Shown here: positions 37,660-62,814 of the stretch, one piece after another
Numbering within the stretch: the first letter of the stretch is position 1
Layout of the letters: every line of letters begins with the position of its first letter
Source: Bryum argenteum
Lineage: Eukaryota > Streptophyta > Bryopsida > Bryales > Bryaceae
Length of the DNA: 64,000 bases
Reading direction: 5' to 3'
Assembly (NCBI GenBank): GCA_037043015.1
Contig: CM073322.1
Location: 16,503,601 to 16,567,600, forward strand
Translations under genes and position numbers: made by a program
Notes under the pieces: generated by a model
Seen by the model: the letters and a program-made list of their open reading frames with translations, nothing else
Database searches by the model: none
What the model was told of the DNA's origin: nothing

Positions 37660-37692
37660 AACACCATATTCGCTTAATTGGGACTATTCCTT
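37660..37692 (+). repeat. Left 33-bp terminal sequence, Tigger/pogo-like
   Basis: Starts AACACCATATTCGCTTAATT. It is an exact inverted match to 62772-62804, 25.1 kb away. Both are directly flanked on the outside by GTGT. TTCGCTTA-type motifs are characteristic of pogo/Tigger terminal repeats, by family knowledge. Confidence 0.9.
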
Positions 37693-38922
37693 TAATTGGG
37701 GACTATTTTGGTTGTGTGTACGTAAAGGTTTTGAAGTTTTCAGGAGGAAAAATCCCGCTATCAAAATCCAACGTCCAAGTTTTCATTTGTAAATGTAGTC
37801 ACAGGTTATGGAAGTTACGGAAGTTGGACATTTATATACTTGAATTTGGTAACACTATTTTATGATAGAGGTTACTTTGGAAAGAGTTGCAAAAAATTAA
37901 CAATGCTGTATCATGCTCTTATGCTCTACAGTGAAGTCCAAGCTTCCCTCAAAAATAGGAAACTCATGGATTTCTTTATTACATTTTTTAAAATTTTTAT
38001 TAACCTGGCTCTCTTGTAGCGAGGTAAATTGTATAACTACTTTAAGAAATTTGTGAATGTGTGACATGATTGGTCTTCTGCTATGATATTATTTTCTTCA
38101 TGTATGTGACGTTCCATCCTAGATAAACTGCAGTATTTTTATAATATATAGAGAGCAAGTTCGTAACTATACAGTCTAGTTTTTTTTTTCTAGTCTCGGC
38201 TTATTGTTGTTTCCAATATTTGGCATATACAAAATTCACTTCCAACAATCAATATAATGAACACATTCATGCTATATCTATTTATGCATTCACTCTCTGA
38301 CCATATTCTTTTGACAAATGTACTTTTGATTATTTTTTGCATTAACTTCATGTTCCAATGTCACATAAACAAATATATGTATTATTTGATTTCACTTATT
38401 GGCACTCGTAACTATAAAAGCAATGATCTCTACGCACATCATTTGATAAATTCATACACTATTGAGGTTTGTACCATGTTCTCACTGCTAATCTCGGATA
38501 AGGTTGAGAAGTCATACATTTTGTGATCGAGTATTTATGATAAAGTTGTTTTAGTTGTTTGTATTGTATACCACCTCCGTGACAATGTTCATGTGTTTTT
38601 AAGAACATCGTAACGTAGTTTGTGTCCAAATTTAATTTTGTTTATTATAGTTAGTATGATACATTGTATACTCCACACTAATCTTTTGTACTACCTCTGA
38701 ATGTTACAGTGTGAGTATATTCATAGAACATGAAATACCAATTGACGGAATTGGATATTCAATGGTAATTAATGTCATTAAAGAGAACAGTTATGAAACT
38801 ATTGTTTTTCCATGTACATATATATTTTTTATAAGCAGAGTTTTTCAATACATAATGTAGTACGTTAACAAGTACGATTGTCTTCACGTTAAACGTACTA
38901 ATAAGTAACCATTCATATAAGC
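37693..38922. other. AT-rich sequence, no gene seen
   Basis: Lies between the terminal sequence and the DUF7869-type pseudogene. No other feature recognised. Confidence 0.5.
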
Positions 38923-41900
38923 CTATTCACTATCCTCGGACGAGCTAGCTACTTCGGGAGCATTTGGGGACGCTCTGATGCTAAGAGCTATTCTAGCTAA
39001 AGCTTGAAGAATGTGACGCTTTGGAACGGTCACACTTGTTGATCCTTCTGCTCGTTTCGGCATCCACGCTGTTAATATAGAAATGACACTAGTCATTTGC
39101 TCCTCGTATGTCTCATCAATCTCCCATTTGAAATTTACCGCAGTGTCCCAATTGTCATAAGGACATGACTCTTTCCCTCGCCGTTTGCAAGGCTTGTACC
39201 ACTGCACTTTTATCATCCTCTCATTCACATCACCGAATGTAAGTATTGGGTCTGAACGAGCTTCTCCTAGCCATATAGGTGCATCACTGTCTACAGCTGC
39301 GCGTACAAGCAACAGATATCCAGCCCGACAGTCTCGGGCTACCCGAAATGATGGTTTTGGTTTAAGGCTTCTTGGTCCGATATAGTGATCGTCCTCCGCA
39401 AATTCGTCACGCAGCTCACCATTTGCGTTGTATAATGTTTGTACCTCAAATGATTGTCTAGTTCGTGGCCAAAATCCCATGCAAAGTACATCCACCGCTT
39501 CCATTTCTGGTTCTTTCAATGCTTCATTCACTCTACTCCAATCTTCCACAACGTGAGCAAATTTTCGCGTATACTCTCCCGATTTGTCTGCATCACCTAC
39601 TGTTTCCAATGTTGTATGAAGCCTTTAATGCCTCTCACAATGTCGTCTTGCCCCTTCATACCACGAGGTAACACTGCACGTGGGGTGCCCGGCGGCAACT
39701 TGGGCTTCCCTTCATGGTCTGCTTTCCATAACTTGATACCTTCGGCAGGGCACCATTTCTCATCAAGACATCGCAGACTTATATTGCATCGTAGGCCATC
39801 CACTACCATCCCCAGAAAACCGAAATTGTCGCCCCTTGGAATGTCCGATGAGTTCGTCATCGCTTATATATCCATCAATGAAGGATTTAAAATCGGAACT
39901 TCTTCGATGAGGGCGTACAAACGGTTCGTCATCTAAATCCATGTACGATTTCATCAGGAGGGGAATTGTTGGATAATCATTCTCCCGTAGTTTCATGCTC
40001 CACCGTCCAAATGATGCATCAACATCGTCATGAGTATGTCCAACCAATAAAAACGATACTTGAATTTCCTCAAAAATACCTTTGCCAACCAGCAGTGACC
40101 AAAAGCATTTGATATGTCGACTTTTGTTGTCTTTCCAACAATTGTCAAGCTGTACGTGTAAGATGGGAGGTAACGATCGGATCGAAGTTGCAGTGAAAGG
40201 TTTTTTCAATATGGATCTAACACATTGCTCTGAACCTCCAAGTATTGCTTCGTATAACTCGGTCGTACCTGCACCTAAAAATAAAGATTCTGGTTGTGCT
40301 GACTTTGGCGGGTTTTCGAGATCGCGGAGTAGCTTCGCGATAGACCCAATTGTTTGATTGCTATCTGCTGGATACAAGTCCAAAGCATAGTGAGCGTATT
40401 TCTTGTCTCCGTGTCCATGCGCCAACATTCCTGTCACTGAAATCGGAAGCTTCATAAGTCCATCCACAGCTTTGTTCTTTGCCGCAAAACATGGAGATGC
40501 TGTTTTTGAATGGTCCACTTTGTCATGCATAATACACAACACTTGTTCAGGGCGATAGCATGATAAAGCTCGACTAAAATAGTAGTGCGCACGCGAGGCT
40601 TCTTGTTCCCGAAGGTGAAATGTGAGAAGTTGGTTCGCATGTTTGTACCCAGGGGAACCATGAGCGTGGACATTACGCAATGCAGTTAGTTCGTCACACC
40701 TCCCACACCGCGCAAAATTATCACCTCGTCGCTTAATTTGGTACTCCGAAAAGTGTTCTTTGCGAATCTTACTACAATCGGATCATATATGGGTTTCTGA
40801 CCACATTCTTTTTGTATCTGCAACACAGTCCCCATTGTTTTAGAATTGTAATCCATCAATGTCTCATATTCGAACTTACCATTTTCGTCCAAATGGAGAT
40901 ATATGTCATGATAAAGCTACCAATTGTCCACAACTTACTCACATCATCTAATTCAGTGCTATATTTCATGTTCCCAATATACCCAAACGATTTTATAATA
41001 GGATCAAATATCGGATAGTTTAAATTCATCCTACATAATCCACTCACTTCTTTTTTTTCATACGCAACCTCACATTATAACCCTTTTTTTTCTAGCAACT
41101 TCATTATTCTCGGAAAATGATGATACTTATGGAAACATACCTTATTAATGTCCTCTAGTATATTCTTCCACTTTGTACCGGTTGGAAGAATTCTCTGAAC
41201 CACCTTCTCACCTTTCGTTAACCCTGATGTTTTAGTCCGTGTCTTGTGTGGCATCGACTCAGCTGTATTTGTCAATATCATTGACATTGTCTGCACTGCT
41301 TGAGCTGTGCTACTCGAAGTCTTCCGTCTACCTGACAATCCATGATATTGTGCACGGCGCCCACTCGCCGCGTATGCACGATACCTATAGAAATCTGACT
41401 TGGACACACCGTGGATCATACGCCATGCACCCATGCAGATGACCTTCCCTTCTATAACACATACTTTCTTTGATGTGTTTGGTATATAGTGGAAGTTTTT
41501 ATGAACCGCCAATTTAATACTATCTTTTAACTTACTGTCTACGTGGTGCAACTCGTAGCGCAATGTCTCAATAAGAGCTGGGCTAAACTGCGTTATGCAT
41601 TCTCGCTTGCAGCAAGACTTCGTCAATGTATCTACGATCGACTTTTTGTCAATGAGAACATCCTTTCGCTTCTTGTTGGGAGGACATGAAGTATTACGAA
41701 CAGAGAAATACTGCCGACTTCCTCGACGATCGCCCAGGCGAGCTGCTCGTGCATCTAGACCTTCGTTGTATTTACGCTCATGGTCGTAAAGACTGACTCC
41801 TTCGTAAAGTACACGTCTTGTAGGCCACCGCTGAAGTGTACGAGGTGTTAATGTTGTTTGCATTTCAGCAACTTCACATACGACAACTCCCACATACTCC

Positions 41901-42605
41901 TTTCCGAGTTCCGTTCGACCGTTTATAGACTGCCACTCTTTTGAAAACTCTACAAACGCATACCCCACCACCAATCCCTTCTCGTCTATAAGGGATACTT
42001 CTTTTTTACACCAATCATCTCTACCGATCCCGATGCAAATGGGGATCCGCCTCTCTTCGTCGCCGATGTGATACACGGCATTAGCATCATCTGAATCTGA
42101 CTGTTTTCCCTGCAATTCAATCCAAATAATTTCAGTAAGGGATCCGGTATAACAGTGCGGCTTTAGTTTATTATTCCTAATTATCCCAAGCACATTCTTA
42201 TCATTTTCAAATCCAAATTTATATCAATACCACTGGTAGATTTCAGAGATCCCAATCCAAATATTGGATACATCATCATTTAAACAAATATGGGTATACA
42301 TTGACATTGAAAGTAGTCATAATCTTTGACTACAATCTCACAATGTCGCTTGCAGATGCATCACTCTCCATAATTGCTTGACTGATTTTGTACTGTTTAT
42401 GCTCCACAACCACGTTCTCTGCACATTCTTCAAAAATCACCATCTTCTGACTCATGATTCCAGCAAGCAATATTTCCCAGTCCCGGACGTTAACGAATTC
42501 AGAGATAGAATGCATGACCGCTATGTTCACAGTTGGATTGGTATACTTGGGTCTTCCTTCCAATGGGCAACTGCCTTTGGAACTTCTATGTGATTGCAGA
42601 TTCAA
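38923..42605 (-). pseudogene. Decayed DUF7869-type protein gene (transposon-associated family)
   Basis: Read on the minus strand. 42193-41075 gives CCKRECITQFSP, then GKVICMGAWRMIHGVSKSDF and a HGLSGRRKT motif, the Cys-rich front part of this family. 40770-39775 gives FARCGRCDELTALRNVHAHG, PPILHVQLDNCWKDNKSRHI and VSFLLVGHTHDDVDASFGRW, the core block (DN...VGHTHDDVDA) that suggests an RNase H-like fold. 39860-38923 holds the acidic C-terminal third. The full length is broken by apparent frameshifts near 40900, 40770, 39773 and 39605 and by a disrupted N-terminal part (42605-42330, containing a palindrome). Such proteins occur in multicopy in plants and invertebrates and are probably transposon-encoded; that role is inference. 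Some breaks could be unrecognised introns. Confidence 0.65.
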
Positions 42606-43360
42606 CGATTCTTATATTATACATATTCTACAATTTCGACATTATTAGAATGTGCCACTTCTAACAGCGTCCTATACATCAACATCGTTTCCTTCATGAT
42701 TTACTTTTACCATGTTTCAAAAGTGTGCATTACATGGACGAGTTAAGTCACGAATGCAGTGGGCAATTGCCAAATGTCTCTGTTATGCTTACCAATGACA
42801 CTATTCTTACTTAGTACTCGATAATGTAATAATAAAATAATGATAATCATGATTTCTCAAGTAAATTACTTCAGAACTCAAAGTGTTGATAACACGCATC
42901 CTATTATTAAGCTCAAGTTTGTCGTCGCACCTCTGCATATAAAAAGATCTACGAAGGCAGTAGGGGTTGGTTGTAAACCGCTCGCGATTCCTCCACTGCG
43001 CCCGTCGTAGAGAAGAACCTAGCAAGCTTTTATGAGTACACTTACTATTCGGTGCCCGAGAATCCTACCCGATAATGAATTTAGAGGAATAAGTATGCAC
43101 AAAATTGGATTGGCATACATGGGTAGTTCACCAATAGGTAAGTGCCTACTGGAACTTTACTCCGCTTTTCATTGCAACCTCTACCATTCTCTACACTATA
43201 CATATTGAACAACCATATTGGCATTTTCAAAAGGGGCCACATGTAACACCTCTACATGCATCAATACGGTTTTCTTCACATAATTTAGGTGTAGTAAGTC
43301 TCCAAAGATGCATTACTCTCACTTGTTACCGATCCAGTGGGCAATTGCCCACTGGTCGTA
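42527..43360. repeat. Diverged ~575-bp tandem duplication with four palindromes
   Basis: Blocks at 42533-42777 and 43105-43355 correspond (TTGGATTGGTATACTTGGG against TTGGATTGGCATACATGGG; later CATCAACATCG against CATCAATACGG). Each block starts and ends with a copy of the palindrome: 42560-42580 and 42757-42772 in the first, 43131-43152 and 43334-43355 in the second. Only the last is perfect. Confidence 0.7.
43334..43355. repeat. 22-bp palindrome, perfect copy
   Basis: CCAGTGGGCAA followed directly by its reverse complement, with no mismatch. Degenerate copies lie at 42560, 42757 and 43131. Identical to the copy at 53766-53787, more than 10 kb away. Confidence 0.95.
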
Positions 43361-43663
43361 AGCTCGGTACTGGCACCCTACTTTCACTTCTTCGATACTC
43401 AACGTTTTTACCCAATCCCAGTGGACTTCTGTAATTCAACATCAAACATTGCTCGTCAGTCGTTTTCATTTATACTCCTATTTTTGTACAAGATTAATTA
43501 TAACTCGAGGTTACTAGTAGAAGCATACCTATTATCAAGAGTTCAAGCGGCATAACGCACCTGAAATGGTGAGGATGCAAAGCAGTCTCGGTTCTAATCC
43601 GCTCTCCCAGATCTTCACAGAGCCCGATGTTAACCTACATAGGGCATGATATTACACTATCAA

Positions 43664-43763
43664 NNNNNNNNNNNNNNNNNNNNNNNNNNNNNNNNNNNNN
43701 NNNNNNNNNNNNNNNNNNNNNNNNNNNNNNNNNNNNNNNNNNNNNNNNNNNNNNNNNNNNNNN
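43664..43763. other. Assembly gap, 100 N
   Basis: Exactly 100 unknown bases, a conventional placeholder length, so the true gap size is probably unknown. It lies between the DUF7869-type pseudogene and the pogo-like pseudogene. Confidence 0.99.
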
Positions 43764-44166
43764 ATTGCGAGCTCCACATCGTAGATGCTCAGGAAGAGTG
43801 GTGACAGTGAATGCAACCACCGCCAATGCGCCGCCGGCCCACGTCATCCCACTCCTTAATTTCAAATCGGCCGCTTTGATTGGAAGTTGGAATTTACGTT
43901 TCTACTCATGAAATTACCATGATGTAACTTCTCCTAATTAAGAATTGTTGTTCGGAAGTTTTTTGATGAGAATCTAGCTAGTTTACCCTTCTTCATAAAC
44001 TTATTCGATAATTCTATTTGATTCTTGCATGGTAATTGGGTAATATACATGTGATACTTTGGTAATATTTAGAATATAAGTCGGAATAAAACTAGTCTTT
44101 CAAACTAAATGGGTAATTTGAAAACTTCGTTCAGGTGATTTTTATAAGATCTTATGGTAAAGTCTA

Positions 44167-44256
44167 GTGGCCATCGAGAATATTAGCATTACGAACGGAC
44201 ACTTCATTCATGCCGGCCCCCTTAGAAAGGACCGAAGTTTCTATTTATCTATCTTT
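44167..44256 (+). mobile_element. SINE-like repeat, copy C (inverted, truncated)
   Basis: The reverse complement matches copy B: GATGGCC, GTCCGTTCGTAATGCTAAT and GAAACTTCGGTCC, ending in TATTTATCTATC. The only copy in this orientation. The tRNA-like block is absent. Confidence 0.6.
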
Positions 44257-44262
44257 GTTTTT

Positions 44263-46245
44263 GCCAATAATTTTTATTGTTATTACAAACTAAGTCTACT
44301 TTGTGTTGTTAAAATTGAGACTTTTCCAAACAAGTATGAAGGATTATTTAGCATACATTTTAGTCAAGGTAGGTTTTACCTTTGCAAGCTAATTATCTGA
44401 ATTTCAAATTCCTTTATCATGATTATTGATACATTTATATGAACGGAAGTTGAATTCCAACAACTTTCTAATTGGAAGGTTTTTGATTCTAATAGTTTTG
44501 GTATGTGATTTGCAATGTTTTACACCAAAATAATTATTGAATGACATGTTTCTTGAAGAGCCATATTCTCTTTACCAATTGTTACATATCAATTTTTGTG
44601 AAGATGGATTGCAATTTGAATTTAGATTTAGGGTAGATTTTTGCTCAATCAACCATTGAATACCAGTTTATAATAATTTTGGTGCAAGTAATCTAGTTTT
44701 GATTTTTCTTAATCTAAAAATTTGGGGGTATTTTTACCAACGCAAGGTTACCAATTAGCACACAATTAATTTATAAAAACTTAATTACAAAATCACGAAT
44801 TTTGATAAATTTTGAATGATTAATATGAAGAATTACTCAAAACTCAAAGCCCTTGCTCAAAAAATTTAGAGGCTACCCTCGTTAATTACGTAAATCAATC
44901 AACTTGGGTAATTCAGAATATTAGTGTGAAGATGTTAACATGTTAGTGGAAAAAAATTTGAAATAAATGTCAATATCAAAAGGTTTTTTTGAAATCTAAC
45001 AACTCTCTAGTGAGAAGATTTTTAACCAAATACTTCGGTATTAGATTTGCAATGATGTACACCATGATGAAAACAATGAAAAAATGGTTGTTTATTAAAG
45101 ACCTATATCTCGTTCATTTACCGTTGGATTTTTAAATTTTTTTTTGTAGTTAGGATTTTAATTAGGACTTTTTATGTGTAGATATTTGATTTGATTCACC
45201 ATTGCAAGGCTATTATTTGAGCAAATAAATTTTAGAGGGTCAAAATCAATTTATTTTTTTATTTTTATTTATCTATTTATTTTTGGATGAGGCTCTACGG
45301 ATCCAGGTTACTACTTGAGTTTCGAGTAAGCTTAAAAAAATTTGGAATTTTTATAAAATCTTAAGTGTAGTAAATGTGAAATTGAGTTGAAGGAGGTAAG
45401 AAAAACATGCATACAAAGGCACGCTTTTGACTCCATATTATTCACACATAACCATGAAATTTTCAAAATCCCAACGGTGGATGTAGTATTTGGTAGTCAA
45501 TAAACATAGTTTGAAAAAAATTTAAAAATTAAAAAATCCCATCGAAATATGAAGTCCCCACCACAAAGTAATAAAATAAGAGATGGGCATGCTCGAAAAA
45601 AGGGTTGAAAAATGAACCCTTGATTCCTCAACTCGATTCCAACTGTCAACGGACAGAACGTGCGGATGAAATTCACATGTTTATACATCCATGACTGACA
45701 GGATTTAAACGTGTTCTCAAATGAGTATATAGGATAAAAAAAATAAAAAAGAAGGCAGTCTGCCATGCCACCTATTCCCCCAGCACGTACTGTGCCCCTC
45801 CTCTTCGAGCAATCTGGTTGGTGGCAAAAATAATAATTCAACATCCTCGATCAGGCTCATAGAAGGGAGAGATTGAATATAGCTCGAATTTCAGATTTCA
45901 CAATCTATGGTGAAGTACCTAGTGTAAGCAATTTTCGTGCATGCAGAAAATAAATGAAAGTAGATTCATGAATTTTGAAGGCTCATATGTGTTTCTAAAA
46001 TGGTCCCCTAATTTTGCATCCTATAATGTTCATTGTGAGTGCATGCTACTGCTGAGTGAAGAAGCTATCATGCATTTCTAAGTGAAGAAGATTATGTATC
46101 TTTGAGTAAGGATGCTATTATGTATCTCTCAGTGAAGAAGTTATTGCATATCTCTAAGTGAAGAAGCTATTATGTGTCTCTCGAGTAAAAAGCCTAGTCT
46201 TTGCATTGTTGGTGTCGCTCTAGTTTTGAGCAGTCTCCCTTAGAA
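44263..46245. other. AT-rich sequence with old dispersed-repeat fragments, no gene
   Basis: Around 45190-45300 an inverted fragment of the 16.1/25.9-kb family appears (ACCATTGCAAGGCTATT). Around 46045-46200 a unit of about 35 bp recurs imperfectly (GTGAAGAAGCTAT[TC]ATG, TCTCT[GA]AGTGAAGAAG). Confidence 0.5.
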
Positions 46246-46408
46246 CCGCCTTACATGGGGAGTCAAACTATCTATGGGTTCGATGGAAAGCAAAACTCTT
46301 ATCAATGCAATTGGTCCATTTTTGAACTACGAGTAGTGGACTAACCGCATTGAGATGATTTTTGTCCTCCTTTGGCCCCATGCTCGGCTTGACGCTCATG
46401 TAAACGGT
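46246..46408. mobile_element. Short inverted-repeat element, ~163 bp (copy 2)
   Basis: A paralogue of 37045-37208, with ends CCTTACATGGGGAGTC and GACGCTCATGTAAACGG and interior words ATGGAAAGCAAAAC, TCCTCCTTTGGCCCC and TGCTCGGCTTGAC. More diverged ends than copy 1. Confidence 0.7.
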
Positions 46409-47434
46409 CCCTTATTCTCGGTGCAATCAAATAATACCAAACAAGAAAGGTGTGTATTTTTTTCTAACATGCTTTTCTACCAAGAAAAATAAAACAACTC
46501 TCTTAATTCAATAATTGCCTTGCAATGGTGGAACCCCAAAACTTGCAAAAATAAAGAAAAATAGACCCTTTCACCAAAATAAATGTTCTCTCTTAACGAC
46601 ATTGAAGATAAAGTTAAGTTATTCTTCAAAATTACAAAATTTTAAATGGAATCTAATCCAACTAATAAATTTGAGAGTTAACATCTAAGCACACCAAATA
46701 TTAAGTTGATAATATTGGATGACAACCCAAAACATTGAAGAGGCATATTGTCTTCATATAGACTTTAATTCCTTCCGAATCACACACTATCACTTCCGAT
46801 AATGTCACAAGCACTTCATTCAAATGTGCTAATAAAGAAGCGCCACACTGTGTGTCTTAATTAGCCGACTCACATTGAATGTAGTGCTTCCTCTTACGGC
46901 GTTTGCTCTCTCAAGCACCACTTCCTTGAGCGGAATTGTTGCTTAAGCTTTTCATGCAAGTGTTGCAAAACGTAAAGACAAGCTTGAAGAAATTATGTTA
47001 TTGTAAGGTTTGAGTGAGTGTTGCAAGTATTGGAGCGGACAAGATTCGTAGCATTCGAAGTCGCAGGATTTGAACAAGTACCGAACGTCGCTGGAGTGGC
47101 GGACACGCAATTTGCCAACTTTGTAAGTCTATTATTCTCTCTTCATGATCATATATCACTCCAACGCCGTTTCTTATTCCGCGCTTGAACTGTCTCTTAG
47201 CAACCCAAACCTTGTCAATACCGAGAATATGACAATAAAGGGTGCAAAGTGTTCCATACAATATGTATAACCATTCTCATTTCTCTCCGTTCAAGATAGA
47301 GTGCAAAAAACACATGTCATTTGTGTGCGGTGATATTGATTGTGATGTGTTTGTCTCATTCTTGCTATTAGTAGTTCCCCTTCGAATACTAATGATAATA
47401 ATTTGTACGTGTAGGTACACCACTTACTTCAAAG
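46409..47434. other. Sequence upstream of the pogo-like pseudogene
   Basis: Contains a fragment of the dispersed family near 46510 (TTGCCTTGCAATGGTG) and probably the 5' part of the transposon. Its terminal repeat was not identified. Confidence 0.4.
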
Positions 47435-49530
47435 ATGTCTAGTTCTTCAAAAACAAGACATCGTGTGGATTTGAGTGGATCTGAGAAAAGAAAGATTTGT
47501 GAAGTTCATAAAAAATTTCCTTCTTTGACATTTCGAGCTTGCACAAAGATATGGTGGAACATCATGGTTTTAGATTGGTGAATCGAACTACAATCACCAA
47601 ATTTTTGGAGCATTCAGAGAAATGGCTTGAGTTTGAACCTGAAATTCATCAAGGTGAAAGAAAGAGGTCTAGGCATTCTAAGTATCCTCAACTAGAGAAA
47701 GCTTTGATGCTATGGTTTGCACAGATTCGAGCGAGAAGAGGAATTCTAAATGATGCAATGCTTTATGAGAAAGCAGCAGAATTCAGAGATGCTTTTGGCA
47801 TCTCTGCAGAAGACTTCAAGCTTTCTCCTGGGTGGTTGTGGAAATTCAAGTTAAGGCATGGAATTGCATGTCATAACCTTCATGGTGAATCTAGCGATGC
47901 GGATGCTCATGGTGTTTGTGTTTCTCAACACAAATTGTTTGCAATAATTGGAACTTATGACATGGAGGATGTTTTTAATTTTGATGAAACAGGTTTGTTT
48001 TATAGGGCTCTCCCTTCAAAAACCTTGAATGTAGGTCGTCCAAGGGGAATGAAGAAATCAAAGGATCGTATCACTTTGGGGCTGTGAGCTAACATTTCTG
48101 GAAAGGAGCAGTTCAAGATGGTATTTATTCACAAATCTGCTCGGCCAAGGTGTTTCCCTAAAACTTTTGATCCTAATGTCTTTGTGCACTACTACAACAA
48201 TAGCACAGCATGGATGACCAAAGACATTTTTACAAACTTGGTGATGTATGAAAATATAAGGATGCATGCACAAGGGAGGAAAATCTTGATTTTATTGGAC
48301 AACGCTCCTAGCCATCAAGTTGAAGGCATCCAAAAGACATTGATTGGTGAGTTTGAGGCATATGTTTTGTCCAATATTACCCTTTTATTTTTTCCAGTAA
48401 ATGTGACTTCGGTAGTCCAACCATTGGATCAAGGGATTATAGCTTCCTTGAAATTGCGTTATAAAAGGAAGCTGGTGGCTTGGACAATAGAGCAATATTC
48501 TGCTACCGATGTAACACAAGATTTGGGATCTATCCATACGGACCTGTTGCATTCCATGGTATGGATTGTTGGAGCATGGAGTGAGCTTGATGGTGAAACA
48601 TTTCGTAATGCTTGGAGAATCTCCAATATTTTGCCTCGAGATTGGAATGCGGATATCATCAGAAAAGGTGAAGAAGAGGATAGAACTGAAATTGGTGAAC
48701 TTGAAAAGCTTATTGGAAGTTTGGATCTTGGCAAATCGAAGGATGGCAATCTTATCCAGAAGCTTTCAGCTTCTGATTACATTGCTATGGTTGCTGAAGA
48801 CAATACCGAAGGTGAATACTCTACTTCAGAAATTATAGAGTTAGTAGAGAATGGTGAAATATCATCACCAGTGTTGGAGAACCACCAAGAAGAAGATCAT
48901 GAAGATGAAGCAGTTGATAAAAACAACATGGAGCGCTCAACAATTCAAGTGGTTGAAGCTCGTGTTCTTTGCCTGTGTGTTTGGATTATATGATAGGAGA
49001 GGGATCCTCAAGTTTTACCTGTGCAGAGTTGTTGCAGATGGAACGAATTTGTGACAAGTTCTCGAAGTTGTGTGTTGCACATGTGACTTGTACAAAGTCA
49101 TCTGATATCAGAAGTTTTATGCTAATTGATTGAAACTCAATAGGGCTCGCAAGTAAGGTAAGTCTTTCTATCATTTTGCTTCTATGTTCATCATTGTAAA
49201 GGTTGCAACTTGTAACATTGATTTGAGTTTGCTATTCCAATTTATATTCTACTTATTAGGTTCAATAGACAATTAATTGGAAAGTATGATTTCTAATATG
49301 CTCTCTGGTAGTTAAGTGCTAACTTATGTTTTTTCCTTGGAAGGCTAGGAGGAAATATGATAAGTTTGGCAAATGACTACGATGTTGATTGATTTTTTCT
49401 TGTTATGTAGGAGTTTGAAGTATAACAAAATATGCAATCCACTTTGGAAGGGTTCATGGTGAATGCAAGAGCATCACAGTCCAACAAGCATCGAAGAAGT
49501 TTACCTCACAACAAACAAACTAGAAGAGTT
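47435..49530 (+). pseudogene. Pogo/Tigger (CENP-B-like) transposase, one frameshift and one stop
   Basis: Would bind the ends of a Tc1/mariner-pogo element and move it by a DDE/D mechanism. ATG at 47435 begins a helix-turn-helix (LSGSEKRKICEVHKKFPSLT). The frame then shifts by one base near 47545 into HHGFRLVNRTTITKFLEHSE, the second part of the CENP-B-type DNA-binding region. The catalytic triad is visible: FDETGLFY, ILLDNAPSH and VTSVVQPLDQGII, with 42 residues between the last two aspartates, as in plant pogo-like proteins. A TGA at 48085-48087 interrupts ITLGL|ANISGKEQ, where the family has cysteine. The frame continues to 48993. A likely C-terminal piece (MQSTLEGFMVNARAS) lies at 49431-49530, probably after introns. 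With only two lesions it is a fairly young wreck. Confidence 0.85.
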
Positions 49531-50229
49531 TTATTTTATCTCGTGCATGATGATGCAGCTTAGATTGTTGTCACTTCAAGACATATGAGAGGTGATCTAT
49601 TCCTCAGAAAGTTGTAACAAAGAGGATACAAAATATGATTAGAGCTCAGTTTATTGTTGTCTTATCACATGTTAGAATATTGGCATGTGACTCTTTACCT
49701 TGATGTCAACAGTCCATGTTCTTATACCATTTAGATGGTGATGATTGGCACATACATAAGAAACTTGAGCATATGAGTCTGAAGAGATTGAAAGTGTAGT
49801 GAATTTTTTTTTAGTAAATCTCATATTCTATACCTATGCATGCTAAAAGTATTCTTCATTACATTTCTAAACACTTCCATAATATCACACTTACAATTAA
49901 TTCTTTACAATCACAGATCGAAATTAACACTAGAGACCTCTTCACTATCACATGCATTTTGGTCACCCAAGGTGTGACAATAAAAAGTGCAGAGTGTAAT
50001 AGACATATCATTAACCATTTGGACCAAAATTTCAGATACGAGTTGGCATAGATTGTCGAGACTTACGTAGAATGTTTGGGTGCAAAAATAGAAAGTGAAT
50101 TAGTGCTTACAACTAGAAAGTTTTTGCATAACATCCATATATTGCAATCGTGGAATATAAGGGATTCCCGGAAAAATTTCTTCATTCAAATTAAGCGCAT
50201 GAATTAGTGAACCATGCCACATGTTGTAG
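49531..50229. other. AT-rich sequence, no gene seen
   Basis: The terminal repeat of the pogo-like element would be expected here but was not identified. Confidence 0.45.
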
Positions 50230-50470
50230 AAAGCGGGTACCACTTGGGCGCGGGTACCACCTGCGCGCGGGTATCACCTAGGCGTGGGCGATGGGTATCA
50301 TGCGGGCGTGGGCGATGGGTATCATGCGGGCGTGGGCGATGGGTATCATGCGGGCGTGGGCGACGGGTATCACCTAGGCGTGGGCGACGGGTATCACCTG
50401 GGCGTCGGCGAGGGTATCACCTGGGCGTGGGCGACGGGTATCAAGTGGGCGTGGGCGCGGGTATCACCTG
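50230..50470. repeat. GC-rich 24-bp minisatellite (~10 units)
   Basis: Unit about GATGGGTATCATGCGGGCGT plus GGGC. The middle three units are identical; the flanking ones vary (ACCTGGGCGT, ACCTAGGCGT) and some have lost bases. Because 24 is divisible by 3, the plus strand reads as a repeated Gly-Asp-Gly-Tyr-His-Ala-Gly-Val frame, which I do not consider a gene. Confidence 0.95.
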
Positions 50471-50594
50471 GCCCGATGTGTTTTGGTGGCGCACCTTCTC
50501 TCCCCTCCCATTTCGATTTCCAGGGTTTCGTTGTGAAGTACTGAAGTTCTCGTGTTTTTCCGTGTCGTTGCTTTCTATGTCGTGACAGTGTAGA

Positions 50595-50755
50595 GTTTTT
50601 CCGTCTCGGTTGCTGGTAGAGTTTTTCCTTTGCGCTTGCTGGTGGGGTTGTTCCGGGCGCTTGCTGCTCGGGTTTTTCCGGTGCTTCTTTGGTGGGGTTG
50701 TTCCGGGCGCTTGCGGTGGGGTTTTTTCCGTGGCGCTTGCTCGTCGGGGCGTCAA
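50595..50755. repeat. Second GC-rich imperfect tandem repeat
   Basis: Irregular units containing GCTTGCTGGTGGGGTTGTTC or TTGCGGTGGGGTTTTTTCCG-like variants, about 30-60 bp each. With the 24-bp array it forms a GC-rich island of about 500 bp in AT-rich surroundings, possibly the 5' end of the gene that follows. Confidence 0.75.
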
Positions 50756-52780
50756 CAACGAACGCCCGGCGAAAATGGGGGCGGCGTCAATAGCAAGTGA
50801 ACGCCGACATCAAAAATAATGCCAACGTGAATCTCAAGAATCGGTATGTGGCCGCCCATCATCGCTGCGTTGCATGAGTTTTGTATTTGATTGCGGACTT
50901 CCTCATATCTTTGCGTGTGTGTTGCCACTCAATAATTGTAGCACTTGCTTGGTCTGATTTGCGCACGTTAATCACAGTTAGGAGATTGCTGTAGTGTAGT
51001 AATACACCTGACTCGGCAACGAAATCACATACTTGCTATCTTTCAAACGGAAACTAACTTTTCTTGTCCTCAAAAGTCTTTTCAGTTTTCGTGTGATTTC
51101 CCTTTTGTAACGATTCCAGCTGATGTAATGCATGTGAGTGCGCCAGGAAATCACATACCCTGACGGTTGCAATCTAGCTTTTACTGTCGATGAACCATTT
51201 TCAGTTTTCGGATGATGTCACTTTTGTGAAGACGGTAATTGATTTGGAATGCACCTAGATTACATACACACTTTTAATCTCATCAAAGAGTGTATGGGAA
51301 GCATGTCTTACGACTTTACTCAAGTACGTGCAGTAGAGACATGCTCCCAGGTTGTACACTGCCAGTATTAGCTCAGCTGCAACGGTTTGTGATAGTTTAC
51401 AAATCTCACTTCCTTTAGATAATGATGATGCTCAACATTACTGTAAAATTACTAAGAACATGCTTCCCGAACGAGCTTTGTGTCAGAAATACGATTAATA
51501 TTGATTCATAGACGACAGAGCTTTTTCTTCTAAAATAATTATTTGGCTCGCCAGACTACTTCATCGATGTTACGTTACAAATCGTTTTCCCTTTCGTACT
51601 TTCTTTTTCTCTTTAGCTAATGATTCAGGTTGAATAAAAATTGATCTCGCAGTTAGATGGTCGATGATTGTAAAAGTATAGGAGACTGTAAGGAGGTTAT
51701 TTCTTAGTGGTGCACCAGTCGGAAATGCTTTGTGTAGAGATGATGCCCAGTTTGTAATAGGCAAAGCATCTTGCATGCTCCTCGTCACACTTTGCGCTCC
51801 CACCTGCTCACATACACCAGATGGCTACTAAATAAATTTGTATACTACGAAGGCTACTGAACCATAAAGGATAATGATTGAACTCTCTCAAGGTTTCTAA
51901 GAGGTATAAGTATGTTGTCGTCAAACATGAGTAATATGCTTAGTTTCAGAAGCCTGTCGGTAAGCATCAGATTGTGTACTTTAGGCTACATGTGTTGGTA
52001 TATTCTTAGTCCATCGATTCCACCACATCTTGATTTTTTGTACTGATTTCAAGAAAGGAGATCAGTTTTTTATATGCTTTGAAGATGAGTGGTATGGACT
52101 TCGCGTGAGTGGTGTACAGACACCTTGCAATGCCTTCGAAGGCTGTCGTAAGCACCAGATCGTGTAGATAAGGTTACACTTTGTATTCATGAGTTTATGA
52201 AGGTCGACTAACTGCACGAAGAAAGAAATCTTATCATGGTGGTTGTGGTTTCCAGGACACAAAAAGGAGTGAATGCCAAGGATCTTTTCGACTTGTATAT
52301 TGTTTTGTGGATTCGAAACAAGGCATCTGTTGGATCTTTGCAAGTTTGAAAAGGTAATACACTACTCCCATTGAAAGCTCGTACATTCGTTTTATGATTG
52401 TCCTTTGATGATGATTACTAAAAGCTTTATTGGATTGAGTAGTTGTTTTCCTTGTGACCGAGGAAAAGCTGTTTTCTTGTCTGAGAATGAATCTGTGCTT
52501 GCATGCAGTGGTTCCGTGACTTGAACCGGTCCGTATCAGCGGTGTGTTGAAGCGTGCCAGTTGCAAGCGACGTATTCTTTAATCTTCTTTTACATATGTG
52601 ATGACCTAATTGCAACGGTGAGTGCTTTCTTTTGAAGCGTACATTGTTCGTCTTTGAGTTCACGAGCTCGTATTTCTTTTGATGTAAATATTTTTATACA
52701 CTGTATTCTAAATGTATAATTATGGTATAAAAAATTGAATTCGACGTCGTATAGTACAACTTGTACAAAATTCGTACACT
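50756..52780. other. Duplicated non-coding sequence, possibly leader/introns of the downstream gene
   Basis: Two diverged tandem units of about 125 bp lie at 51020-51270 (AAATCACATAC, TTTTCAGTTTTCG, GATGT[AC]A...). Another pair lies at 51952-52005 and 52138-52190 (GTAAGCA[TC]CAGAT[TC]GTGTA). No coding frame recognised. Confidence 0.55.
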
Positions 52781-52781
52781 T

Positions 52782-52803
52782 CCAGTGGGCAATTGACCAC
52801 TGG
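52782..52803. repeat. 22-bp palindrome copy (one mismatch)
   Basis: Matches the consensus except A for C at position 15. It is followed by GGAAGGGCGTTTA, the same flank found after the decayed palindromes in the 85-bp tandem units at 52981-53140. Confidence 0.9.
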
Positions 52804-52980
52804 GAAGGGCGTTTAGAAAAAATCGACTGACCGGGCAGCACTTGTATGTGATGCATATGACTAATCCAGAATTAGTTCGGGCAGTGAGGAATTTGCAGCA
52901 CGAAGGAGTTCTGGTGCAGATTAGTCTCGTAGGCCATAGCGTTTCTTAGTATCATGGTTATTGGTCGGCCTGACTCAGGG

Positions 52981-53140
52981 AGGGAGCGAGTTAGCAATTT
53001 AGTAATTGAGTACTCGGAAGGGCGTTTACGAAGATGAGGGTGATTAGGTCGCACTAGTGTGTGGAGGGAGCGAGTTAGCAATTGACTACTGAGAAGGGCG
53101 TTTAGGAAGACTAAAGTGATTGGGTCGCACTAGTGTGTGG
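52981..53140. repeat. ~83-bp tandem repeat, 2 units (third relative at 52782)
   Basis: Units start AGGGAGCGAGTTAGCAATT at 52981 and 53065 and end GCACTAGTGTGTGG. Inside each, AGCAATTGACTACTGAG-like words are eroded palindromes, so the palindrome was part of the ancestral unit. Confidence 0.85.
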
Positions 53141-53173
53141 TGCACAGAATTCAAGTTCAGTCTGAAACTGCAT

Positions 53174-53195
53174 CCCGTGGGCAATTGCCCACTGA
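53174..53195. repeat. 22-bp palindrome copy
   Basis: CCCGTGGGCAA plus TTGCCCACTGA: mismatches only at position 3 and the last base. Confidence 0.9.
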
Positions 53196-53571
53196 AGCTT
53201 GTTAGTGACATTGTTAGACTGACACTGTGACTTTCAACATTTCTTTTTTGTTGAATACGTACCGTTCTGTAGATATTGACCATTCCAACTTTTCATGTGC
53301 AGAAATCTAGCACCATCAAATAGGACTTTTACCAGCAGAACTTGGATCTCTGTTTCGCGGACATCTTCAACGACTCTGTCAGTTGTAAGTTTTTACAATA
53401 TAAGCTCCTAATTCCCAAGTTTGTAGAATGTTTTATCTTAATGCCGTAAGTAGCATTTTAGAAATTGGACAGGTCCTAACTTTACTGGTTCTAACTTCCT
53501 GTTAGGGAAGTAGATTAATTAACAGCCAGGAATTAACTTTTTGTTAGAGGAGATAGTACAAGAAAATGCAC

Positions 53572-53593
53572 CCAGTGGGCAATTGCTGACTGG
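53572..53593. repeat. 22-bp palindrome copy (two mismatches)
   Basis: CCAGTGGGCAA followed by TTGCTGACTGG. The right arm carries two changes, so pairing is broken there. Confidence 0.9.
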
Positions 53594-53660
53594 AACTTGC
53601 GGCATTGTTAGTGTATTTTACGTGCGAAAATTCCTTCACTGGAATGAAAATTCCATCAGA

Positions 53661-53682
53661 CCAGTGGGCAATCGCCCACTGG
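53661..53682. repeat. 22-bp palindrome copy, extended to 26 bp
   Basis: CCAGTGGGCAA plus TCGCCCACTGG, one central change. The flanking GA and TC extend the symmetry to 53659-53684. Confidence 0.9.
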
Positions 53683-53765
53683 TCATAACTTCTTGTTGGG
53701 AAGTAAATTAATTAATAGCTGGAAATTAACTTTTTGTTAGAGGTAGATAGAACAAGATATTGCAC

Positions 53766-53787
53766 CCAGTGGGCAATTGCCCACTGG
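53766..53787. repeat. 22-bp palindrome, perfect copy
   Basis: An exact consensus copy, 55 bp upstream of the first coding segment of the following gene. Confidence 0.95.
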
Positions 53788-54684
53788 AACTTGCGACATT
53801 GTTAGTGACTTCAAGTATCTTTGTAAAATTCCATCGGGGGGATGAAGAAGCGAAAGGAGACGGAGAGGGTGCTTTTTGACATTCCATACACAAAGTGCAA
53901 TGCCCTGAAGAAGTTGTTCGATGTAGTTAGAGATGTGAATGTCCGTGGAGACCGCAATGTGGGCAAGAAGTACCAATGAAGTACCAAGCTGCTTTAGCCA
54001 CTCCTCGGCAATGGTCGATGGAGTCACAGAAGATGCCCAAGGACAGTGGAGTGCTGCTCTACGAGTTGTGGTGAAACAAAGACGCTTTCCCGATCTTCAA
54101 GTGGCGTATACGACAATGGCGTCCGTGAATCGTGACGGATGTAAAAGTGCATGGCGACAACCTCATTGTATGGCTGGTCAATGCATCTGGTAGCGTTGCC
54201 AACCTCTATTTCTTCAAGGAAGACAAGTTTGAGCCGCGGCCACTTTTAGACAGCCTTTTAGTCCACGGCGAGGGAATATCCGAGTTTCACCGCGGTCCTA
54301 TTCTACCCCAGGACGAAACGCGGGCTTTGAATCGATCGGCAAGATTACAGAGGAAGAAGGGACACTAGAAGCATTCTTTGAGAAGAATTGCTGAAATCAA
54401 CAAGGCGGTAATCTTGAAAGCCACTGCTGAAGCCACACCCCGAAGTCGAAAAAGGCCCTCCGCACCAACGATTGCTTGTCCTCCAGCAGGCAGCCGCAAG
54501 AAGAAGGACAAACAAAAAAGAATAGATGAGGAAAAGGAAGCAGAGGCGGAACCTAGCATTGTCGTTGTCGACAGCCAAGTTGTGGGCAGCGGTCTAAAAG
54601 GAGAAGAAGTGGCGATGGAGGATGATGAAGACGAAGTCGGTGAAGATACGACCAAGCCTCTTAGTGCTGAAGGTGATAATACGC

Positions 54685-54706
54685 CCGGTGGTCAATTGCC
54701 CACTGA
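54685..54706. repeat. Palindrome copy inside a reading frame
   Basis: CCGGTGGTCAA plus TTGCCCACTGA, read as Gly-Gly-Gln-Leu-Pro-Thr-Glu in the acidic region of the unknown gene. The frame stays open through it. Confidence 0.8.
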
Positions 54707-55557
54707 GAATAGTGAGGAAGAGGAGGTAGAGGAGGTCGTCTCAACTAAACATTCCAAAGGCCAGAAGAAAGCAACTCCGAAAACCAAAAGGAAGTGGACC
54801 GGACCAAGCGTCATGAAGAAGTCCGAGAAGCGAGTTTCGGGAAGAAAGCGGTTCATCAATGGAGGTACAAGAGGAAACTAAACCAAAGAAGCCAAGAGAA
54901 GACAAAGAAGAATCCAAAGAAACACCCCACGAAAGTACCCGAAGGCAAGGAGATAGACGTGAAAACTTTCCAGGAGGAGCTGATTGAGTTCAGGGACCGA
55001 GTCAAGCCCATGTACATTTGGGGACAATCTTTCACGGCCGAAGTGGACGTGAAACGTATGAGACTCGCGACCGAAGGAAATGAAGTACCGCCCATTTCAC
55101 AAAGACTGCAGACAACTTGTTCCAAGTCTTCTTGACGTCTGTACACCCACGGAAGCAGACACTTACACTCATGCCCATTTGTGATGAGAAACCGGAAACG
55201 TTCGAAGCTGCTTTGAATCTGCCGTTTTATATCATCAATGGGCGGCGATTCGGCGGCGGCGTCGCCCTCATCAAGGCGAGTAAGGACGTCGATTCAACTG
55301 TGAAGGACATATACAGAACGTGGACATGCGATTTTGTATGGACGGATGACAACCTCTTATTGTCAGAGCTTTCAAGAAGGGTGAACAACACAAATCTCTT
55401 CCATCGGGACTCCCAGTACCTCCTCCACATTCAAGACGCTGGGCGGGACCTATGGGTGCACTACGGTAACCCAACTTCCGATGGCAAATCCAAGTCAAAC
55501 TGGAAGGTATGTCATCTATCATTTTCTTGTTCGTTATTGGATTAAGGTTTTTGCAAT

Positions 55558-55581
55558 CCAGGTGGGCAATTGCCCACCTGG
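55558..55581. repeat. Palindrome copy, 24 bp, perfect, with symmetric insertion
   Basis: CCAGGTGGGCAA followed by its exact reverse complement. Compared with the 22-bp consensus, one G is added on the left and one C at the mirrored position on the right. It lies inside the intron 55507-55640. Confidence 0.95.
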
Positions 55582-57074
55582 CTAAGGTGTATATCAACGT
55601 TAATAATTGAGGATCATCTTCGTTGCTATTGCTTGTGTAGGAGTTCCAATTGAAAGCAGTGGAGACTTTAAACGCAATGACAGTGAGGAATGCGAACAAG
55701 ACTGCAAAAGAGTATCCGGGCGAGTTTCGAGTTATTTGTGCGCTGATGATGTTTGCACAATCGAATTATGGATGCCTTCCACTGGTACGAAAGTGGCGAT
55801 CTTATTAATCCGGACACGGGGAACAAATGGAAGGAAGATGTCAAGCCATGGGAACGCAAACACACCGTCGCGTACACGTTCAAGTGTATCCGTGGTATGG
55901 GAACGTATAGTTTGACCGAGCTTGTAGCACGAATAACACAGGGCCTTGAGATTAACGGTGAAAGCGACGCCAACGCCGGAAAATGAAGAAGTAGTTCTTC
56001 CGCCCAAAGTATACATTGGGTCGAACAGACCTAAGAACAAATTCTGCTACAGTCTGAAGGAGTGGACTGACAGAAAGAAGCAGAAGAACGCCGTGATTCG
56101 CTGGATAAACAAGTACTACCCGGCTATGCTTTGGGTAGATGATGACGTAAATCCGGAGGCGTGGCAACGCTTCAAGACGGAGATAGGTTTCAACTCCGCC
56201 CACATGGACGAGTTGATCCGGAGGGGTACTAAGCTCTACCTGGCAAAGTTCATGAAAGCTAGTGACAACCCGAGGCGCGAGCAAGAGAGCCCTCCGCTTG
56301 GGTTTTTAGCGGAGATCGATCGTGTTCAAAAAAGAAACCCCTTCTCCGACCCGACGTTGCACCCCTGTATGGCGTATTGGAGAAAACTCGGAATTTCACG
56401 AAGTTCTCGAAGGTTATCCATGTGGAAAACCAAGACGTATGGGGTGAAGTATATCAGGAGGATTGGCAAACCGAACTGTCATCGAACATCGCGGGTGGCA
56501 TTTTAGACTTCCGTCCCATCGACGAATTCGCGGAAAGAGGAGGATTTTGAGTTTGATGCTATGGGTGGGCGATTCTTCAAATCCATCTTGGACGTGCTAC
56601 TGAAGCCAGCAGATTTGTTACATCCCCCGTCACACTGGTTGGTGATCTCGCACTGTAACAAATCAAAGGAAGTGCAACGCGCGTTGACAGCGTATTTTCC
56701 GAACTATACAGTGCAAGAATCTCAATACATAGCGGCAACGGTGGAGAAATATTTTTTCTTGAATAGCACGATCAAGAAGGGAAATGGGGTTGTTGTGCTC
56801 ATCTATTCGAAGAACGGTTGCCAACCCTTGGCTTGGAAAGAAGTTCTCCGTAGTGAAGAGAAGTTCAAGAAGATTGGCTCTGTGCGAGAGTACCCATCTC
56901 ACGAGGATGAGTCGCGCATGGAGGTCTACCTAGACTTCATTGAGCGACTTTCAAATAACTCCTGAAGATGACATCCCCCCCAAGATTATCTCGCATTGCA
57001 TCTTTGGTCGAAAGGCGATGATCGCCTGCAGCTGGTGAGGGCCGCACACATTTTTTTTATTTCGGTTTGTAGAT

Positions 57075-57096
57075 CCACTGGGCAATTGCCCACCGT
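57075..57096. repeat. Palindrome copy, degenerate, in an intron
   Basis: CCACTGGGCAA plus TTGCCCACCGT. The core TGGGCAATTGCCCA is intact and the outer arms have drifted. Confidence 0.85.
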
Positions 57097-58414
57097 CGGG
57101 GAGTCTTGACATATATCGGTTTGCGATTCTGAGTCCTATTTGTATTATTATGGTTCGAACATTTGTAAATTCCAGGGGCTATGGCCCAATGGGCGGATTC
57201 CTACACTAACCGGTTTTGTTTTGGGCGAGATGAATGGTTTGAAACCTATAGCCGTCGCTCTGCAGGAGATTCGCTTGATATGTTAGCCTTGATTCTGAGT
57301 TCGGATGTAACTTAACAGGTTTTGCGCACTTTTTCCACCCCGAAAATCAATCGCCGATGTCTCGCATCATCATGGCCTCGAGTTGGAAATCTAAAGATAC
57401 TGAAATTGAATCCCGAGAACTCGGATGAGAGTGCCTCAGCTGGTTGCCACGAAGACATCACGACAAATTTCGATGCTGGTATTTTGGCTAGGGAGGACGC
57501 CGAAGCTGCAGAAGACGAATGTGCAGATGATGAAGTGCACCAAACATTCGAGGATATCTGTTCAGAGTCTGGTAGTATTTCCCACTTCATATTTCGATTT
57601 CTATAATTATGCTCTTCTGCTGCTTTAAGTTTAAGTTCTTCTGCTTACCTAAGTATACTCACTCATTCGTGAATGTAAAGGCGAAGATGAGGACGATGCG
57701 GATGAAGGTGAGGACGGCAAAGACTCTGCCGAGTATTCACCTGCGACTAAAGTGACTTCAGTCTTCGAAGGAGATCTCGCATATCCGGAGAGGTTTGCAA
57801 CATTGCTCGAGAGTTCGAAGAATATCCTGCCAGACATTGAGGATGGCCATAGGACGGCTATGGAGATGGCAGCGGCGGAAAGGTCCTCTCTGATGATGGG
57901 ACGCATTCGTGGCTCAGGTGATTTTCTTCGCTGTTTTCTCCCAAATGCGCCTCTGATGCCAGCACGAGCGCAGCCGGAGAACTTTGGCGTAGCGGTTTGC
58001 TCTTGTGATGATGGATATAATCATGAAGACCCGGTAACTGAAAGTCGGGATTTTGTAGGTTCCGATTATCAGACTGCATCTCAGGAAGGTCCTGTTCGTC
58101 AGGGACGGTCTCGGGATGGCTCTGAACCGCTAATTGGTGGGGTCCCAGTCGCAGCGACGACGTCATTTGATATCCCAGTGGTCCCAACACCGGCATGTGA
58201 AACTTCAACGGATGGAACTCCGTCTTTTGGCTTTCCAAGGCTTCAACCTATTGAAGGGAGCTTGGTTGACCCAGTCGATCAATCGTTTGCTGAAATCACC
58301 TCTGCCGTTCCTACAGCCGATGACGTTGCTGCCGTTCCTACGCCCACCGATGATCCTTCTCCCAGTGGCAACAGCCATTTGAACACGTTGGGCGCTGAAG
58401 AGCACCCAAATTTG

Positions 58415-58436
58415 GCTGTGGTCAATTGCCCAGTGG
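58415..58436. repeat. Palindrome copy inside a reading frame, degenerate
   Basis: GTGGTCAATTGCCCAGTGG core, read as Val-Val-Asn-Cys-Pro-Val, a different frame from the copy at 54685. The frame stays open. Confidence 0.7.
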
Positions 58437-58972
58437 CAGAGAATGCAGGATCGCAGGGAGAAGACCATCGTATTCTGGAGACCCAGATCTCCATTCCAGA
58501 AGGTGTTCAGGCTCCTATCGAACAAGATTGTGCCATTGTCCAGTTGGCTGTACCTGTTGACGCCGTGAAGCAAAGACCATTACCTGCACTACGGGCAGTA
58601 AAGGAGGAGATTTCTGGCCCAAAACCTTCAAATATTGAGAATCCCATCTTAATCGATAGTGACGAGGATGATCTTCATTATAAGAAGACAGTTGTGGAAT
58701 ATCCCACGGACCGATCTTGAGTTGTCGGAAGTCTTCTGATGACAAAGATCGACAAAAAAAACATAAGAAGTTGTCGCAGATATAAAGCTTTGAGGATTCA
58801 ACTGAGGGCAATTAGCAAGAAGAAGCTCGCCGTGAACAGAGCTAACCGCCTGAAAAGCCGTGAGCTTGAGATGCAGAACAGGAAACTGATGCGGGAGCTT
58901 GAGTTGAAACAGAAGGAGCTCGAGGAAGCGGAGAAAACTATCGAGTGCTGGGTTGAGTCACGTCATCGGTGA

Positions 58973-62420: not shown

Positions 62421-62771
62421 TATTTTCGTTGCAAGGGTGCCCAATTGCAAGAGCAGTTTTTGGGAGAACGTTTATTGGCCCCATATCAATCATGCCTGAA
62501 ATTGTCTAAAGGGAGGTAGGTACCGCGCGTTGCAAATGTTGAGTTAAACCCTACACATGGTTACTGCGAAAAGCCCTGCACTGGTGGAATTACAAGCGCG
62601 AACGCACATCGACTTTATTTTTGTTTTACGGTTTCCGGTTTAAATTTCCGAATCATAATAGTAACTAGATAAGTATTGACAATGTCGCATTTTATAGGGT
62701 GAGAGTTCGAACAGCTAGCAATTTTATAACTCTTTTACTATGAATTTCGATATAAATTTAGTCCCAAATTT

Positions 62772-62804: not shown

Positions 62805-62814
62805 GTGTCCTTAA

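Follow-up and report, generated by a model that had tools for sequence, protein, structure and literature searches.

A 22-bp palindrome, CCAGTGGGCAATTGCCCACTGG, recurs in a 64,000-nucleotide stretch of the Bryum argenteum genome (contig CM073322.1, positions 16,503,601 to 16,567,600; C2:16503601-16567600 in our contig numbering), hereafter the window. We found that this palindrome is almost certainly part of a family of giant DNA transposons, one copy of which lies in the window, and that it is conserved beyond its flanks in non-coding DNA. Taken as a whole, we consider it somewhat more probable than the alternatives together that the palindrome is a conserved, cis-acting, dimer-bound regulatory site for which the element's own ParB-fold protein would be the best candidate ligand.

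Palindromic sites in the window

All 13 positions named in the initial annotation carry the palindrome or a variant of it, and its judgement that chance cannot explain them was borne out. At up to three mismatches, the 22-mer has 8 matches in the window compared with 0.00 in 100 shuffles, and its 14-bp core has 15 (mean of the shuffles 2.75, largest 6). The sites at 43334 and 53766 are both perfect and have different flanks, as had been stated, and the 22-mer (three mismatches or fewer) has no match in the first 42 kb of the window or beyond 58.5 kb; three-mismatch matches of the core at 18405, 57175 and 58529 are within chance expectation. The site at 55558 is a 24-mer that has gained one base symmetrically in each arm. 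Read directly, the 22-mer contains no CpG and would therefore be left untouched by CG methylation. The sites, listed without strand, are as follows.

42560..42581, degenerate palindrome (3 mismatches in the core), on the left gene's 5' side; lost by deletion from copies D and H
42756..42777, palindrome with 4 mismatches, upstream of the left gene
43131..43152, degenerate palindrome with 5 mismatches, upstream of the left gene
43334..43355, perfect palindrome, upstream of the left gene
52782..52803, palindrome with 1 mismatch, upstream of the right gene
53174..53195, palindrome with 2 mismatches, upstream of the right gene
53572..53593, palindrome with 2 mismatches, duplicated array 5' of the right gene
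53661..53682, palindrome with 1 mismatch, in the array 5' of the right gene
53766..53787, perfect palindrome, ~55 bp 5' of the right gene's likely ATG (53842, a putative start)
54685..54706, palindrome with 3 mismatches, within right gene exon 1, where it translates as PGGQLPT; no better conserved than its flanks
55558..55581, symmetric 24-mer variant, right gene intron 1
57075..57096, palindrome with 3 mismatches, right gene intron 2
58415..58436, palindrome with 4 mismatches, exonic; no better conserved than its flanks

Neighbouring frames with GH17 plus X8 and TORTIFOLIA1-type domains support the plant origin that had been proposed for this DNA. A viral origin was considered and rejected: 50 stretches in viral_contigs matched two peptide patterns, and none of these stretches encodes a DUF7869 relative (tblastn; DUF7869 is the domain of the left gene). 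No exact 22-mer was found in viral_contigs, nor, for bacterial occurrence, in genome_contigs.

A family of giant transposons

The assembly (258.8 Mb, 25 contigs) contains 275 matches to the 22-mer at up to three mismatches, against 0 for the pattern read backwards. Fifty of these matches, all perfect, were listed with positions, and the other 225 were counted. The 50 listed matches form 12 clusters, ten of which lie inside paired transposon ends and two (C1:37.10 M and C2:3.60 M) near a single end; among the matches listed, all 12 clusters are thus in or beside one giant transposon family. Cluster J (C4:26.98-27.03 M) was assigned to the family by its paired ends and a DUF7869 match only. The stretches around seven clusters all match the window from ~37660 to 62800 over long runs at ~78-98% identity, the match in copies A and K covering the right-gene side only, with the other side left out; the smaller stretches of clusters E and B likewise match the window element.

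The left edge at 37660, which begins AACACCATATTCGCTTAATTGGGACTATTCC, is common to copies D, H and I, and an inverted copy of this sequence ends at 62804. Genome-wide, the end sequence has 58 matches at up to three mismatches (30 plus, 28 minus; control 0), among which are 19 neighbouring plus-minus pairs within 60 kb that span 11.7-56.4 kb (median 34.1 kb). Both copies with two ends available (n=2) have target duplications of 4 bp: the window copy has GTGT/GTGT, and copy H has AAAA/AAAA. The shared edges, inverted ends, target duplications and paired ends enclosing palindrome clusters establish that the palindrome is housed in giant terminal-inverted-repeat DNA transposons of one family; it is confined to one region of the window because that region is one transposon. 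The window copy spans 37660-62804 (25.1 kb) and is bounded as follows.

37656..37659, no strand, left target-site duplication GTGT; the same 4 bp follow the right end
37660..37705, plus strand, left terminal inverted repeat, AACACCATATTCGCTTAATTGGGACTATTCC...; inner limit approximate
62759..62804, minus strand, right terminal inverted repeat, the left one in inverted orientation; inner limit approximate
62805..62808, no strand, right target-site duplication GTGT, matching the left one

Between 11 and 18 palindromes (four mismatches or fewer) occur in the window copy and in each of the seven large stretches around other copies. The count for the window is probably too low, because a 100-N gap (43664-43763) replaces a site-bearing stretch of copies F, I and G. 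A third subfamily, T (C1:37.09-37.10 M), which is 77-81% identical in left-gene coding DNA and mostly unalignable elsewhere, keeps five palindromes, one of them perfect.

Rickettsia palindromic elements are dispersed short palindromes that are mobile in themselves and insert independently at unrelated loci, and the initial annotation had likened the present palindrome to them. The copies are indeed dispersed and short, clustered, and mostly without shared flanks, as had been anticipated. An independent mobile palindromic element, of the Rickettsia type or resembling a miniature inverted-repeat transposable element (MITE), that landed in these transposons would explain the sharp edges and mostly unique flanks; we nevertheless regard it as exceedingly improbable, since every one of the 50 matches with an assigned position belongs to or adjoins a single family, and the positions are common to copies and database homologues. 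The placed copies being transposon parts, a freely mobile, self-spreading palindrome was rejected. The initial annotation had also raised the possibility that every copy lies inside one long conserved repeat, with the palindrome merely a part of it. The first half of this largely holds for the listed matches, but the second does not, because the motif recurs at many non-homologous places within each element and is conserved beyond its flanks.

In CACTA/En-Spm transposons, short repeated internal sites lie within a few hundred bp of the ends. The palindromes are likewise short, repeated and internal to a transposon, but they are not subterminal. Transposase-binding or synapsis sites comparable with the CACTA subterminal repeats would be expected to be repeated, palindromic and element-specific, as these are, and the clusters lie on either side of the element's centre. 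However, no palindrome in the window copy lies less than 4.3 kb from an end (the outermost are 4.9 and 4.4 kb away), some sites are in introns, and two ~150-bp elements with similar ends show no palindrome in the sequence inspected. We therefore judge this explanation improbable, and rejected a subterminal transposase site because the sites are in the wrong places. A palindrome-free central stretch of 9-17 kb is found in the window copy and in copies F, I, G, D and H.

The two ~150-bp elements are MITE-like and lie in copy A (L018) and copy G (L022, 3083-3234). Their ends resemble the giant transposon's, with a single mismatch over 24 bases at one end. The target duplication is TCAA/TCAA in one element; in the other it is either 5 bp long (CCACT) or 4 bp and shifted. 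They were possibly mobilised by the giant transposon's transposase.

Conservation of the 22-bp unit

The palindrome is a sharp unit, with information confined to the motif. In a profile of 102 distinct 62-mers around 128 sites (four mismatches or fewer), information was 1.0-1.9 bits at every motif position and 0.06 bits at the adjoining base; within the 20-bp flanks it peaked at 0.49 bits, at a single position, as expected from related groups. Local duplications of ~200 bp (one of ~194 bp) multiply some of the sites.

We grouped 138 sites by their masked flanks, which gave 23 groups of at least two sites, with three single sites set aside; two large flank groups mix array copies from one element. 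Flanks were compared over 60 columns on each side of the motif. In the 21 groups counted as non-coding, the motif differed at 445/8754 positions (5.1%) compared with 5971/46446 (12.9%) in the flanks, and the difference was lower in the motif in 19 of the 21 (sign test 1e-4, Wilcoxon 4e-4); one of these groups (degenerate site, window 57172) sits across a splice acceptor and might include some exon sequence. Of the two comparisons, the per-group test deserves more trust, because pairwise counts lack independence. The motif had no such protection in the two exonic groups (158/1782, 8.9%, vs 801/9323, 8.6%, in the flanks). The motif is thus conserved beyond its flanks in non-coding DNA and not in exons.

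A perfect palindrome could also form a hairpin or cruciform in RNA or DNA, and seven complementary two-arm changes were observed, two of them from the symmetric variant at 55558. Across 50 distinct 22-mers, however, there were 110 one-arm changes against these 7 complementary and 3 non-complementary two-arm changes (uncorrected for relatedness). Pairing of the arms is not maintained, because one-arm changes far exceed complementary two-arm changes; a hairpin is therefore very improbable, and it was rejected on the ground that changes in the arms are mostly uncompensated.

The right gene and its relatives

Two genes point outward from the centre of the element, the left on the minus strand and the right on the plus strand. 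Three or more exons, separated by GT-AG introns, seem to make up the right gene. It is frameshifted in the window, and stop-free runs of 562 and 474 codons (copy G) and 500 codons (copy K) are found in other copies.

53842..55506, plus strand, exon 1 of the right gene; broken by frameshifts in the window copy, with an open frame in copy G (L024:5059-6744); limits from GT-AG and homologue ends
55507..55640, plus strand, putative right gene intron 1 (GT...AG); exon boundaries of homologues fall here
55641..57034, plus strand, exon 2 of the right gene; broken by frameshifts in the window copy, with an open frame at L024:6839-8260
57035..57175, plus strand, putative right gene intron 2 (GT...AG)
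57653..58717, plus strand, additional reading frame of the right gene; copy K has it open over 500 codons (L020:3787-5286, minus)

Structure comparison of a predicted model recovered a ParB/sulfiredoxin fold for a domain in the C-terminal part of the exon 1 product (~54960-55480); in CTPase partition ParBs this fold is that of the N-terminal domain. Sequence searches of the right gene did not find ParB, and hhalign was weak; right-gene sequences gave nothing significant against PDB (best E 0.04), and exon 2 had no Pfam match above the cut-off. The CTP-binding motif G-x-x-R is defining for CTPase ParBs. It is present in 7/7 plasmid ParBs compared and absent from the right-gene protein, where N-G-[QT]-H-[ST] is there in 9/9 homologues.

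Searches of the protein database returned 12 and 8 homologues of the right-gene exons. This genome is an unlikely source of them, because the closest exon 2 homologue is 85-86% identical whereas the genome's unbroken copy stretches mostly reach 88-97%; the same holds for the DUF7869 homologues (best 80%, against 93-97% in the genome). In several right-gene homologues the predicted frame continues into an intron. Translated in three frames, the palindrome reads PVGNCPLG, QWAIAHW and SGQLPT. Such peptides, at one mismatch or fewer, occur in 8 of the 20 right-gene homologues (11 matches, 6 exact; shuffled peptides 0.10, exact 0.0), and none was found in the best 120 of 337 DUF7869 homologues. A looser peptide scan, with 13.7 control matches per set, was set aside.

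Strict matches lie at the starts or ends of intron 1 or 2 in P0121, P0123, P0127 and P0132-P0135 (46-86% identity), and at the exonic site in P0133-P0135, which are close to one another, and in P0137 (42%). Among homologues that reach at least 15 residues into an intron, the motif peptide is present in 4/4 for intron 1 and 3/5 for intron 2 (counted by eye); the two intron 2 homologues without a strict match are P0122, which has a two-mismatch form, and P0126, which has none. As read from translated peptides rather than from DNA, the palindrome appears to persist in corresponding introns of relatives that share as little as 46% of their protein sequence.

Internal duplications and gene conversion could also have multiplied a short sequence neutrally, and the ~194-bp duplication, together with an inverted repeat inside the element (~1 kb in copies F and I), did spread some sites. 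This explanation is most improbable, since the 102 distinct 62-mers share little outside the 22 bp, the motif is conserved in non-coding DNA, and the same introns carry it in homologues that are 46-86% identical.

A putative regulatory site and comparison with known systems

The palindrome is symmetric and sharp-edged, is multiplied 5' of genes and in introns, and is protected only in non-coding DNA, and a dimer-bound regulatory site is therefore the most likely explanation. On these features of the sequence, we are confident in regarding it as a putative conserved protein-binding site. A symmetric protein dimer would bind the 22-bp sites, through which the expression or chromatin state of the whole element would be controlled. 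The candidate ligand would be the element's own right-gene protein with its predicted ParB/sulfiredoxin-fold domain, an assignment that we make tentatively from the structural model. By analogy, it might act as bacterial ParB, KorB and VirB do on their sites, and as VANC anti-silencing proteins do. A more speculative possibility, which we consider doubtful, is a plant transposon system resembling ParB-parS, in which the ParB-fold protein would load at the palindromes, spread over 20-50 kb, and counter silencing or control genes at a distance.

Alternatively, a dimeric transcription factor of the host could bind the sites, which the element would use as promoter or enhancer input. Sites located 5' of both genes and in introns fit this explanation. 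We infer that a protein binds the sites, which protein this is, and that it regulates the element or counters its silencing; that DNA binding by element proteins is itself inferred weighs against our interpretation and in favour of a host factor. On the other hand, sites elsewhere in the genome would presumably be expected for a host factor, and the 50 listed perfect sites are all in the 12 clusters in or beside the family (225 of the 275 matches being unplaced). Two DUF7869 elements of distant families in the same genome (54-57% identity) also lack any site at up to five mismatches over stretches of 8.5 and 8.1 kb, of which at least 7 kb lie upstream of the DUF7869 gene. A host factor is thus an unlikely alternative, though the most probable of those considered.

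The initial annotation had named no plant element of this kind, and we likewise found none in the literature searched. The transposase of VANDAL elements, VANA, is of the MULE type. The left gene here instead encodes DUF7869, and no MULE model is among the Pfam matches. As described for VANDAL and VANC in Arabidopsis (PMC5735166), a short motif is found there too at many non-coding places (introns, intergenic and terminal); the motif is read by an element-encoded protein, and local repeats multiply it, a local multiplication that is common to VANDAL elements and the present transposon. In contrast to the 22-bp palindrome, the VANC21 motif YAGTATTAY is 9 bp and arrayed in one orientation, and VANC targets are described as varying considerably between related elements, whereas the palindrome here appears to be kept in relatives (PMC5735166).

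Literature on giant transposons in bryophytes, on palindromic elements in plants, and on Sola and ParB in transposons yielded one close case, the Ectocarpus element Sola1-1_Ec32 (21.5 kb), which is likewise a giant DNA transposon with a ParB-like accessory gene on the strand opposite to the transposase (PMC12477816). It encodes a protein that is ParB-like and also a DNA methyltransferase, and the ParB-like proteins of algal transposons have been suggested to bind and epigenetically modify their own transposon (PMC12477816). No methyltransferase domain was found in the frames scanned in the present elements. We found no target site described for Sola1-1_Ec32, and the string 'palindrom' occurs 0 times in the main text (PMC12477816). 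A 4-bp target duplication is described as a feature of Sola2 (PMC3627910), and duplications of this length are present here in the window copy and copy H (n=2). ParB-like proteins in giant algal transposons are already published (PMC12477816); conserved palindromic sites, or any DNA target, for such accessory proteins were not found in the literature searched.

The likeness to bacterial ParB, KorB and VirB lies in the predicted fold of the candidate ligand (PMC11790492, PMC8494293, PMC10653881). KorB is described as silencing at a distance from 16-bp sites (PMC11790492), and VirB as offsetting silencing (PMC10653881). The reported KorB and ParB sites are 16 bp, compared with 22 bp for the palindrome.

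How giant transposons keep 25-50 kb of genes expressed despite host silencing is the open question that these observations address, and a conserved palindrome beside a ParB-fold gene offers a concrete and cheap test of binding. If our interpretation is correct, a VANC-type strategy would have arisen from unrelated proteins in another element lineage. A site that is stable across relatives of 46-86% identity, unlike VANC targets, would also inform how arms races stand still.

The left gene and the centre of the element

The left gene is presumed to be the transposase. Its open pieces are 42611-42333, 42223-41078, 40782-39766 (with DUF7869) and 39624-38926. The protein database holds 337 DUF7869 homologues, and this genome has at least 121 DUF7869 matches, from 119 scored of 1772 candidates. 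The protein had no sequence match in PDB, and the literature searched made no mention of DUF7869. Because the predicted model is poor (pLDDT 58.6) and the fold search was uninformative, the catalytic role stays presumptive.

38926..42611, minus strand, left gene, presumed transposase; PF25273 (DUF7869) E=1.1e-43; pieces joined putatively
43664..43763, no strand, 100-N assembly gap; copies F, I and G have here ~2.6-2.85 kb that hold three or four more palindromes
47512..48990, plus strand, nested pogo/Tc5-like transposase (HTH_Tnp_Tc5, DDE_1); outside the palindrome system

The 100-N gap is probably an assembly break. In copies F, I and G, the equivalent stretch repeats some of the right upstream region in inverted orientation, and the two upstream regions form an internal inverted repeat that is 85-96% identical, with pieces totalling ~1 kb in F and I and 0.7 kb in G. 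Copies D and H have weaker internal inverted pieces (149-262 bp, 71-74%), and the window copy is without the left arm, with the gap in its place.

About half of the 121 listed DUF7869 matches (61 when tallied by eye) are on contig C1 (44.1 Mb), and all of these belong to families 50-58% identical to that of the window; many have open frames of 600-980 aa. This loading of C1 is unusual, and C1 is perhaps a sex chromosome.

The stretch around the nested pogo/Tc5-like transposon is common to copies F and I at 96-98%, and the insertion therefore predates the spread of the subfamily. The central part of the window element also contains minisatellite arrays with units of 17, 24 and 26 bp (50233-50749). 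Elements of subfamily 2 have a central C2H2 (zf-met/jaz-like) zinc-finger frame (L015:3250-3935, minus; alike in A, D and K), not seen in the window copy, which could be cargo or another DNA-binding candidate. Just outside the element, 190 bp at 62811-63000 match the interior of copies A, D, H and K at 90-93% and constitute a separate repeat. Elsewhere in the window, a long simple-sequence tract at 26000-26761 gives rise to (YLFI)n reading frames.

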